Positions 41,656 through 45,569 of a stretch of 64,000 bases of DNA are shown one piece after another. Below the pieces are notes generated by a model that was not told where the DNA came from, made no database searches, and saw nothing but the letters and a program-made list of their open reading frames with translations. Position numbers and translations under genes: made by a program. The first letter of the stretch is position 1. Each line of letters begins with the position of its first letter. The stretch is from Flavobacteriales bacterium (lineage in GTDB: Bacteria > Bacteroidota > Bacteroidia > Flavobacteriales_D > Crocinitomicaceae): the NCBI GenBank assembly GCA_947500875.1, contig CANMUN010000009.1, positions 1-64,000 on the forward strand. The letters run 5' to 3'.

Positions 41656-42366
41656 ATGCGTTTAATCTTATGCTTTAGCCTTTTTTGGGTCTCGTTTACT
41701 GTTCTAGGTCAGAAGTTCAAACAAGAGCGTTATAAAAACTTCGACCGACGCCTGTTCCATTTCGGATTTATGTTGGGTTTTAACACTTCTGATTTCACCC
41801 TCTACCCTGAATTAATTAATTACGAAAATTATGGCATCTTATCCGTTGTAAACGATGCACAACCTGGAGGACAACTCGGAATACTAACCACCATGCGCAT
41901 TGGAACTCCCATGGTACGATTGCGTTTTATCCCCACCATTTCCTTTCAGGAACGGTCCATTAAATACCGCTATGAAGATACGAGTAAGCTTGGTTATCGA
42001 TTGGAGGACGAACGGGTCAACTCAACCAATTTGGATTTTCCATTGATGTTGCAATTCCGTACGCGCCGCCTGAACAATTTTGCCGCCTATTGTTTGGTGG
42101 GCGGACAGTATTCCATTGATTTACAATCGCAAGAAAAAGCATCCCAAAATTATATTGACCCATTCATTAAGATTAAACGAACGGATTGGCAAGGCCAAAT
42201 AGGTGCGGGACTTGAGTTTTTTGCACCGTACTTTAAGTTTGGGTTAGAATTAAAGTTTACCCATGGATTTGGGAATGTTTTTGTGAAGGACAATACCTAC
42301 ATTGCTGCCCCAATCAGAACCTTATACAACCGAGGCTGGGTGGTTTCCTTTATATTTGAAGGATGA
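41656..42366 (+). CDS. porT: PorT-family outer membrane protein (type IX secretion)
   Basis: Signal peptide; RRLFHFGFMLGFNTSDFTLYP, beta-barrel-like pattern, directly downstream of ubiE. Confidence 0.85.
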   Translation: MRLILCFSLFWVSFTVLGQKFKQERYKNFDRRLFHFGFMLGFNTSDFTLYPELINYENYGILSVVNDAQPGGQLGILTTMRIGTPMVRLRFIPTISFQERSIKYRYEDTSKLGYRLEDERVNSTNLDFPLMLQFRTRRLNNFAAYCLVGGQYSIDLQSQEKASQNYIDPFIKIKRTDWQGQIGAGLEFFAPYFKFGLELKFTHGFGNVFVKDNTYIAAPIRTLYNRGWVVSFIFEG

Positions 42367-43892
42367 TTCATACGTTTTCATTCGCTTGTTCACCCGAAGA
42401 AGCTCAAAATGAAGCTTTTATTCAACAGCAGATTGCGGCAGAATGTGGACCTCAATTCGTTCATTACCGTTGGAAAAAACGAAGCATTGACGCTCGATCT
42501 CGTAACATTAAAATCAATGCAACCCTCGAGTGCTCCGAATCTCCATTGCCTTCAAGAATTAGAAGCTTCACCTTTAATAACGTAATCCAATGCCCTGAAA
42601 TTCATATTATTGGAGCTGGACCCGCAGGACTTTTTGCTGCCTTGTTCGCCCTCATGAACGGACGTAAGCCCGTGATCTTTGAACGAGGTAAAGACGTGCG
42701 ATTACGCCGACGAGACTTGGCCCAAATCGGACGTTTGCAAACCATTAACGAGGAATCAAACTATTGTTTTGGTGAAGGGGGAGCCGGTACCTATTCCGAC
42801 GGAAAGCTCTACACTCGATCCAAGAAACGAGGCGAAGTACAGCTTGTATTGGAATTACTGGTACATTTTGGGGCGGATGAAAACATTTTAGTCGATGCAC
42901 ACCCGCACATCGGAACGAATAAACTTCCTAAGATTATTGAAAATATTCGTGAATTCATTCGTGCCAAAGGTGGGGAAGTTCATTTTGACTCCAAATTAAC
43001 TGGACTTCGACGTAAGGGAAGAGCGCTATCCCATCTTGAAATCAATAAATCGCTCATTGTTCCTGTAAATCAGGTGATTCTTGCCACGGGGCATTCGGCG
43101 CGAGACGTGTTTTATTTGTTACATCAAGCTGGGATTCAAATCTTACCCAAACCTTTTGCCTTAGGTGTACGTGTGGAGCATGCTCAGGAACTCATCGATC
43201 GTCTGCAATACCATGGTCGATTAAACGATGAATTCCTCCCCCCTGCCTCCTATTCTTTGGTGGAACAAGTGGACGGCAAAGGCGTGTATTCTTTCTGCAT
43301 GTGTCCGGGCGGAATCATTGCCCCATGCGCCACTCGAAACGGAGAGGTAGTGACCAATGGATGGTCGCCGTCGAAACGCAACAACCCTTACGCCAATTCG
43401 GGAATCGTGGTGGCTATTGAACCATCGGACTTCGAAAACCCTTTGGATCCCTTGGTTTGTTTGAAGTTTCAAGAATCCGTGGAACGCGCGTGCCATGATG
43501 CCGCTGGCAACCATCAACACGCACCAGCTCAACGATTAAAAGATTTCGTCGATGGCAAGAAATCGGATAGTTTCCCCAGATCCAGTTACACACCTGGAAT
43601 TGTCAGTGTTCGATTGGATCAAGTATTACCAAGGTTTGTAGCCGATAGGTTGCAAAAGGCTTTCCGCGCATTTAACCAGAAAATGCCCGGATTTTTAACC
43701 AACGATGCCGTAGTGCATGCGCCTGAATCACGTACCTCCTCCCCTGTTTTGATACCAAGAGATCGGGAACGATTGCATCACGTGGAGGTCAGGAACTTAT
43801 ACCCCTGTGCCGAGGGAGCAGGTTACGCCGGAGGCATTGTATCCGCAGCGATCGATGGAATGAACTGTGTGGAGGCTATTATTAGTCAATAA
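42363..43892 (+). CDS. NAD(P)/FAD-dependent oxidoreductase
   Basis: IIGAGPAGLFAALFALMNGRKPVIFERGKDVRLRRRD, FGEGGAGTYSDGKLYTRSKKRG, NLYPCAEGAGYAGGIVSAAIDGM. Confidence 0.92.
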   Translation: MIHTFSFACSPEEAQNEAFIQQQIAAECGPQFVHYRWKKRSIDARSRNIKINATLECSESPLPSRIRSFTFNNVIQCPEIHIIGAGPAGLFAALFALMNGRKPVIFERGKDVRLRRRDLAQIGRLQTINEESNYCFGEGGAGTYSDGKLYTRSKKRGEVQLVLELLVHFGADENILVDAHPHIGTNKLPKIIENIREFIRAKGGEVHFDSKLTGLRRKGRALSHLEINKSLIVPVNQVILATGHSARDVFYLLHQAGIQILPKPFALGVRVEHAQELIDRLQYHGRLNDEFLPPASYSLVEQVDGKGVYSFCMCPGGIIAPCATRNGEVVTNGWSPSKRNNPYANSGIVVAIEPSDFENPLDPLVCLKFQESVERACHDAAGNHQHAPAQRLKDFVDGKKSDSFPRSSYTPGIVSVRLDQVLPRFVADRLQKAFRAFNQKMPGFLTNDAVVHAPESRTSSPVLIPRDRERLHHVEVRNLYPCAEGAGYAGGIVSAAIDGMNCVEAIISQ

Positions 43893-44120: not shown

Positions 44121-45569
44121 TTAATTGTTACGTTGATAAATTAACTGAAAAGCATGGGCACGCGCTTTGGCAATATCGCGTTGCAAGTCGGAAAGAACGG
44201 CTAAAGCGTTAAGCATAGGTGTATGGTCGAAATAATTAACCAACCAATGAGTTGGACCATCATAATATATATTGTACGTTTTCTCCTCTTTCGCCAAATC
44301 CGAATATACATCTACCAATGCGTAAAGTTCTGTTTGATTGACCTTGTTTTTCAAAAGTAGTTCCATTAATTGTTCTTCATTGCTTACAGAAACATTTTGT
44401 GGCATAGTTAACCGGTATTGGCCATAGGTTGCGCAACTTTCTAAAAGTTGGTTTTGAAAAGCCACGAGTGGTTTCCAAAGATTTTTAATACCAACTCCAT
44501 TTTGGTCATAATCATCATAACCACGAATCCCTAATTCGCGCATGGGTGTATCGTATTCATCTTTCGCCATTATCTCATAAAAATTGAGTGCCGTAGGTAC
44601 CAAAGGAGTTTTTGTATCATACCTATTGACAACCAAGAACCGTTCACCAGTGGAATGAAGGTCTTCCCCAGCCTTTTCCAACAGCAATAATTTAATTTGG
44701 TCGATGTTCTTCATAGCCTCAATGGATGCTTCATTGATTTGAAGCATCGTAGCTTGTTTTTGCTTGTCAAATTCGCTGAGGGAAAGGCCCATTTTTTGAC
44801 GCTGGCTGAATGCATTTAACATTCTGTCGCCTCGGTTTACGTAGTTGAGGGTTTGTTCCTGCACTATGCTTCCATAATTCAACTCGGTTGTAATCATGCG
44901 TAAACTTCTACTGTCTCTCAATAGTAAAAAACTACCAAAAACAATCAAAACGCCCAATATGAAAACCGGGTGATGGCCGATTAAATCGATGTTTTTGCGC
45001 TTCAAATATCCATAAGCAATAATAACATAAGGAAGCGTACCAACACCCACAATAATCATCTCATTCGTTCCGGGCCATTGCATTAGGAAGAATAGACTGG
45101 ACAAGGTAGTGATGGACAAACCAAAGAAGAAAATATAACTTGAAACTATAAATTTAGTAGCTAGTAATCCAGAAGGTCTTACCATAAAACCTTTGGTCAG
45201 AGTTGCAATGGACAAACATCCTATTCCTAAAATAAGCATTTCATTGCAACCTGGCCAATGCATTATTTTGTAGAGGAATCCAAGAATCAATACCGACAAG
45301 GAAAGATATGCAAAATAATTAAGCAATAGAGCTTGTCGTGGCCTCAATCCTAAAGTGCTTTCCTCGGGAATTTGAAATGCTGCAAGGCATACAAGAACTG
45401 CCGTCGTGCCTAAACTTATAATTAACATTGCATCTGCGCCTACCCAATGCATTATTTTGAAAAGCAAACTGAAAATCCACGTTGCAATAATTCCATAGTA
45501 GGTTAAATGCAGGATTTTTTGCCCTTGTTCAGTAGTTAAAAAACCACCTATACCGTTTTTTCTTGACAT
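44121..45569 (-). CDS. GldL-like multi-pass membrane protein with large soluble C-terminal region
   Basis: Three repeats of FKIMHWVGADAMLIISLG / YKIMHWPGCNEMLILGIG / FFLMQWPGTNEMIIVGVG, then a TM and ~250-aa soluble region. Confidence 0.8.
   Translation of the reverse strand: MSRKNGIGGFLTTEQGQKILHLTYYGIIATWIFSLLFKIMHWVGADAMLIISLGTTAVLVCLAAFQIPEESTLGLRPRQALLLNYFAYLSLSVLILGFLYKIMHWPGCNEMLILGIGCLSIATLTKGFMVRPSGLLATKFIVSSYIFFFGLSITTLSSLFFLMQWPGTNEMIIVGVGTLPYVIIAYGYLKRKNIDLIGHHPVFILGVLIVFGSFLLLRDSRSLRMITTELNYGSIVQEQTLNYVNRGDRMLNAFSQRQKMGLSLSEFDKQKQATMLQINEASIEAMKNIDQIKLLLLEKAGEDLHSTGERFLVVNRYDTKTPLVPTALNFYEIMAKDEYDTPMRELGIRGYDDYDQNGVGIKNLWKPLVAFQNQLLESCATYGQYRLTMPQNVSVSNEEQLMELLLKNKVNQTELYALVDVYSDLAKEEKTYNIYYDGPTHWLVNYFDHTPMLNALAVLSDLQRDIAKARAHAFQLIYQRNN

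Follow-up and report, generated by a model that had tools for sequence, protein, structure and literature searches.

A GldL–GldM fusion protein in a Crocinitomicaceae genome carries three GldL hairpins and lacks the glutamate E49

Symmetry mismatch is a hallmark of the rotary motors known so far, and the GldLM complex has a 5:2 composition (PMC9389320). The rotation of GldM inside GldL and the anchoring of GldL are open questions (PMC9389320). Against this background, a locus that appears to encode ring and axle elements in a single chain asks what such a protein is made of, and whether it could still act as a motor. The locus in question lies in a window of 64,000 nucleotides, the whole stretch of DNA analysed here, from a lake bacterium of the Crocinitomicaceae whose 2.5-Mb draft genome of 102 contigs is probably metagenome-assembled. 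An earlier note, made from the sequence of this window, had read one of its open reading frames as encoding three GldL-like hairpins with a tail vaguely reminiscent of GldM, and had proposed an internally triplicated GldL-like fusion that might be motor-like. The protein is referred to here as P (P0001; Table 1).

Table 1. Coordinates of P, its parts and neighbours in the window, and of related gene groups at other loci
Feature	Position	Strand	Details
P coding sequence	44121..45569	(-)	482 aa; 7 predicted TM helices (hydropathy: three pairs and one single)
GldL hairpin 1 of P	45369..45500	(-)	residues 24-67; FKIMHWVG; E49-equivalent T
GldL hairpin 2 of P	45183..45332	(-)	residues 80-129; E49-equivalent L
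GldL hairpin 3 of P	44997..45161	(-)	residues 137-191; FFLMQWPG, without both K and H; E49-equivalent L
TM7 of P, GldM-type axle helix	44913..44969	(-)	residues 201-219
GldM D1-like periplasmic domain of P	44124..44882	(-)	residues 230-482
porT/sprT, T9SS gene two genes from P	41656..42366	(+)	NF052311, 159 bits (cut-off 125)
FAD-dependent dehydrogenase, convergent neighbour of P	42363..43892	(+)	common to other fusion loci; named from sequence alone
Gene A + gene B pair loci	L163: 3892-8142		L160, L163, L165, L166, L168, L169, L174, L180, L188, L213
Gene pair of L163	5743-7173 and 7180-8142
Clusters of GldN-related and GldM D3/D4-like secreted proteins	L203: 1399-7882; L208: 5878-10883; L251: 1842-5240		L203: fusion covers GldM positions 18-578; L251: without adjacent fusion

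The open reading frame with three GldL-like hairpins is confirmed, on the minus strand, and its motifs (FKIMHWVG at residues 37-44, YKIMHWPG at 100-107 and FFLMQWPG at 160-167) fall where the earlier note had seen them in the DNA. The Pfam model GldL_N (PF22827) matches the protein in three stretches (E=1.1e-16, 61.2 bits, cut-off 24), and in hairpin 2, YKIMHWPGCNEML, 12 of 13 residues are identical to FKIMHWPGCNEML of the same genome's GldL. It is this hairpin that best fits the motif line KIMHWPGxxEML given previously. The lysine and histidine taken to be part of a shared hairpin motif are both present in hairpins 1 and 2, and their places in hairpin 3 are occupied by F and Q. The pairwise likeness of the three hairpin segments, each of about 50 aa, exceeds that in all 2000 shuffles, including shuffles restricted to the inside of 10-aa blocks; chance repetition of hydrophobic sequence, which matched the observed similarity in 0 of 2000 shuffles, was therefore rejected.

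The likeness of the C-terminal region to GldM, originally described as vague, turned out to be firm. The GldM_1st model (PF12081) gives one match at 25.6 bits, just above its cut-off of 25, and residues 230-479 share 39% identity with the GldM of the same genome (E=9e-40). The chain stops after D1, and the Pfam search returned no match to PF21601 or PF21602 that would indicate domains D2-D4. The models for the full-length proteins score below their thresholds, at 49.4 bits for the GldL equivalog TIGR03513 (cut-off 68.3) and 15 bits for the GldM model TIGR03517 (cut-off 180). When P and its relatives were used as a profile against the PDB, both partners of the motor were recovered (GldM, 7sau_A, 1.5e-14; GldL, 7sau_C, 3.9e-11). 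The AlphaFold2 model (pLDDT 77.7, pTM 0.56) contains three helical hairpins and a long helix spanning residues 201-259, in which TM7 is continuous with the first helix of D1. Its best twelve Foldseek matches in the PDB are all GldM or PorM chains (probability 1.00, E 0.005-0.22, none below 0.001), and individual GldL hairpins superpose on it at 1.4-2.0 Å. Taken together, the Pfam matches, the shuffles, the PDB profiles and the AlphaFold2 and Foldseek results uphold the earlier reading of the anatomy, including a relation to both GldL and GldM, and specify the tail of the internally triplicated fusion as the first periplasmic domain of GldM. Sequence, profile–profile, structural and tree evidence are concordant: P is a fusion of three GldL hairpins with D1 of GldM.

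An ordinary gldL-gldM pair resides elsewhere in the same genome, on contig C20. Because these separate copies exist, the idea that P serves as the genome's sole GldL or GldM was rejected, and P is an additional protein. The gldKLMN gene order is absent around it, the window neighbours being porT, the FAD dehydrogenase, a GNAT gene and SelO. A fusion gene occupies the same place between porT and the FAD dehydrogenase in three other genomes (G402, G006 and G024). No gene neighbours of P are conserved among the loci compared, and a shared operon was rejected since the 77-aa, 143-aa and GNAT neighbours are unmatched outside the window. Close relatives are found at 72–74% identity in CANHHA010000001, a Flavobacteriales MAG, and at 74% in G024, where the gene (L057, 5864-7435) sits within a glycosyltransferase cluster away from T9SS genes. 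The fusion at the porT place of G024 (L038) is a second, shorter one.

Whether P could work as a motor depends first on its membrane residues. E49 of GldL is strictly conserved and needed for secretion and gliding (Vincent et al., 2022, PMC8986121). In a profile alignment of hairpins, 97 single-hairpin rows carry a residue in the E49 column, which is glutamate in 95 of them; the 2 exceptions are not GldL. Of the 102 multi-hairpin rows with a residue in this column, 0 have glutamate. A gapless re-reading of a larger set likewise found glutamate at this position in none of 172 hairpins of multi-hairpin proteins; where real single-hairpin GldLs miss it in this re-reading, the cause is a turn of greater length or an anchor set at the wrong place. 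Three multi-hairpin proteins (L093, in hairpin 1, L167 and L241) have a glutamate one to two residues off the position. The three equivalents in P are T, L and L, and Asp and Glu are absent from the second helix of each of its hairpins. The N-terminal KETPRQKM segment of GldM, which holds R9, is absent from the P sequence as well; the gapless partner of R9 is H200, in an alignment that is ambiguous at the start of TM7. The earlier note had named a lack of conserved charged membrane residues as grounds for refutation, and for the key residue, E49, such a lack is seen in P; the equivalents of K27 and H30 are kept in hairpins 1 and 2. With E49 missing in its three hairpins and in all 172 hairpins of the multi-hairpin proteins, P is probably not a proton motor of the GldLM type, and the earlier suggestion of a motor-like protein does not hold in its proton-driven sense.

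It could be argued that P is nonetheless an active single-chain motor in which other residues, such as the retained Lys and His, couple protons. The K27 and H30 equivalents are indeed kept not only in two hairpins of P, but in 120 and 125, respectively, of the 135 hairpins of multi-hairpin proteins, and a 755-aa fusion in G365 retains a GldM part that matches profile positions 18-578. We nevertheless consider such a motor quite improbable, given that P has neither E49 nor any acidic residue in the second hairpin helices, that hairpin 3 has lost both K and H, that ring and axle are tethered, and that the single substitution E49A in F. johnsoniae GldL abolishes SprB secretion (PMC8986121).

What P would do instead can be sketched from its sequence and model, which show it to be a single-chain derivative of GldLM with three GldL hairpins, one axle helix and D1 in one polypeptide. 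The hairpins would begin and end in the cytoplasm, with D1 in the periplasm. P would most likely dimerise through D1, as GldM does, and its hairpins would then surround two axle helices in the membrane. Since the glutamate is missing in every hairpin and a loop of about 10 residues tethers the hairpins to the axle, P would be expected neither to take up protons as GldL does nor to rotate freely; it is probably related to the motor without itself rotating. Alone, it should fall short of the GldN/K ring, because it is without D2-D4, which span the periplasm in GldM. P might form a fixed complex of its own, or it might join real GldL and GldM and set the number or placement of active motors, both being guesses among several. 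A homodimer would place six hairpins around two axles without symmetry mismatch; a complex of P, one GldM and two GldL would bring the number back to five. In the interpretation that we favour, P would be proton-inert and would serve the GldLM/T9SS system as a scaffold or regulator, with the chances for and against it about evenly balanced. Against it count the lack of conserved neighbours of P, the glycosyltransferase surroundings of its relative in G024, the K27 and H30 equivalents kept in most hairpins, which leave room for another proton path, and the glutamates close to the E49 position in three multi-hairpin proteins.

Thirteen fusion proteins, from 12 genomes, were analysed among 86 genomes of the genus; in two further genomes of the genus the related frames are shorter and no GldM tail can be recognised (L198, L199). 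A 150-genome sample of the family yielded one fusion candidate outside the genus at E<=1e-40, with one in-frame stop. This patchiness within the genus, together with the degenerate hairpin 3 and the shortened, scarcely recognisable D1 tails of L093 and L038, could be taken to mean that P is a recent, functionless duplicate of gldL and gldM in decay. Intact fusion reading frames in about a dozen species speak against this. So does the dN/dS of P measured against the G024 relative of 74% identity, which is 0.236 for the entire gene and 0.17 for D1; these values indicate that P is maintained. P is under purifying selection, and we regard decay as highly improbable.

A link with secretion is seen in two genomes. 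Behind the fusion genes of G029 and G365 comes a gene for a protein of about 725 aa and then two or more for proteins of about 200 aa. The former is a homologue of the protein just behind GldM, namely GldN (TIGR03523, 143.9 bits vs 85.9), and the latter match GldM positions 404-578 (D3-D4). G389 has the same accessory genes without an adjacent fusion gene, and the 725-aa protein has no match in the window genome. This clustering with GldN-like and GldM D3/D4-like genes ties at least the G365/G029 branch of the fusions to T9SS-type machinery; by extension, P may share the tie.

P is real, conserved, and kin to an unnamed family of Bacteroidota, and the triplication is kept in its relatives. Among the matches listed when 395 genomes of the class were searched, hairpin-covering ones occur in at least several dozen genomes. 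At the related Bacteroidota loci, the gene behind a PadR regulator encodes an N-terminal domain, then two or three hairpins of the GldL kind, one TM helix and a tail like GldM_1st. The N-terminal domain is helical, about 75 aa long and of the DLLDHICC type. Many Bacteroidia genomes hold PadR-linked proteins of about 390-430 aa that combine this domain with two hairpins and a GldM-like tail (L214-L227, L230, L232, L238, L241 and others), and neither Pfam nor NCBIfam appears to have a model specific to them. Other architectures include proteins of about 900 aa with two GldL hairpins near residues 611-719 (L041, 2436-5150; L040, 2832-5500), the L041 protein having no further Pfam domain; proteins of 713-715 aa in which two GldL hairpins and a GldM-like middle are joined to an extra C-terminal part of about 340 aa (L233, L235, L237); and proteins of about 260 aa that lack a GldM tail and are built of three GldL-like hairpins plus additional helices (L050, 3892-4674; L051, L052, L053, L209). 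Searches of a collection of open-access papers, which lacks most of the subscription literature, gave no mention of GldL-like or GldM-like proteins, nor of GldL with PadR in a relevant context.

These relatives suggest a different use of the fold, in which P would work outside the T9SS, sensing or transducing signals at the envelope, as the PadR-linked proteins may do; in the latter, the N-terminal domain, if akin to permease-prefix or HAAS domains, could bind and release the PadR regulator. A profile-level hhalign comparison of P with the PadR-linked, three-hairpin gene A family is colinear over the whole length, that is, three hairpins, TM7 and D1 (probability 99.7, E 1.6e-26), PadR reading frames lie directly upstream in most of the PadR-linked multi-hairpin loci, and one family member (L173) has a weak permease-prefix match (19 bits vs a cut-off of 30). 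However, neither a PadR gene nor a DLLDHICC-type domain is found in P or among its neighbours in the window. The TM7+D1 tree, furthermore, places the genus fusions inside the GldM of Crocinitomicaceae, separate from the PadR types, and one clade of the two on D1 was rejected (p-AU 0.021), with the reservation that long branches and gene conversion could mislead this test. A sensor function outside the T9SS is thus conceivable for P, but in our judgement rather unlikely.

The same tree does not reject a single clade of the genus fusions (p-AU 0.60). Two histories fit these results: the fusions arose independently, or an ancient one had its tail replaced through gene conversion with gldM. For the G365 fusion (L096), two 40-column windows of D1 are 97% and 92% identical to the GldM of its own genome (L253, 1674-3458), compared to 72% and 60% to that of G029, which suggests gene conversion with its own gldM, at least in this genome. 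One entry in the set (L144, CP034120.1) bears the title Glaciecola amylolytica THG-3.7, a name that denotes a gammaproteobacterium; its GldM falls among Fluviicola, and the entry may be mislabelled.

A further variation on this theme is a division of the hairpins between two genes. Ten loci, most of them with a PadR gene in front, hold a three-hairpin gene A and, behind it, a two-hairpin gene B that has a GldM-type TM helix and tail of its own. In the nine pairs measured, 7 TM helices are predicted for A and 5 for B; the hairpins of both are without E49, and a structure model of the gene B product matches GldM chains (E 2.5e-4). The sum of five hairpins and two GldM-type axle helices equals the 5:2 count of GldLM, as counted from genes only. 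A universal five-hairpin rule was rejected, since the majority of PadR-linked proteins carry two hairpins and are not accompanied by a gene B. As a tentative proposal, which we hold to be possible rather than probable, Bacteroidota would harbour a family of proton-inert, covalently tied copies of GldLM, in which A and B would assemble 1:1 with five hairpins around two axles; fusion and loss of the proton carrier would have yielded a frozen motor reused as a switch or scaffold, and P would be its lineage-specific version.

Proteins of this kind would show how a motor fold can be converted to a non-motor use. As natural frozen controls, single-chain GldL-GldM proteins that lack the proton carrier may allow the arrangement of ring and axle to be solved in a fixed state, and the 3+2 gene pair predicts a 1:1 heterodimer with the helix geometry of a 5:2 complex.

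Set beside known systems, P has in common with GldL/PorL (TIGR03513; PF22827) the two-helix hairpin with its KxxHxPG turn and the K27 and H30 equivalents of hairpins 1 and 2, as well as the stretch KIMHWPGCNEML that hairpin 2 shares with the GldL of its own genome. GldL/PorL, however, consist of one hairpin, bearing E49, and a cytoplasmic tail of about 200 aa, whereas P has three hairpins, TM7 and D1 without a long tail. With GldM/PorM (TIGR03517; PF12081) it shares the single TM helix leading into a D1-type domain, but not the KETPRQKM start with R9 or domains D2-D4. The PadR-linked proteins of Bacteroidota resemble P in the spacing of about 60 residues between hairpins in their three-hairpin forms, in TM7, in the GldM_1st tail and in the lack of E49; unlike P, they have an N-terminal helical domain and a PadR gene, and their D1 belongs to another branch. 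The GldLM 5:2 proton motor (PDB 6YS8, 7SAU) is made of the same two building blocks, and the fold of P matches both of its chains; the motor, in contrast, keeps ring and axle as separate chains and possesses a proton carrier, and a homodimer of P would have a ratio of 6:2.
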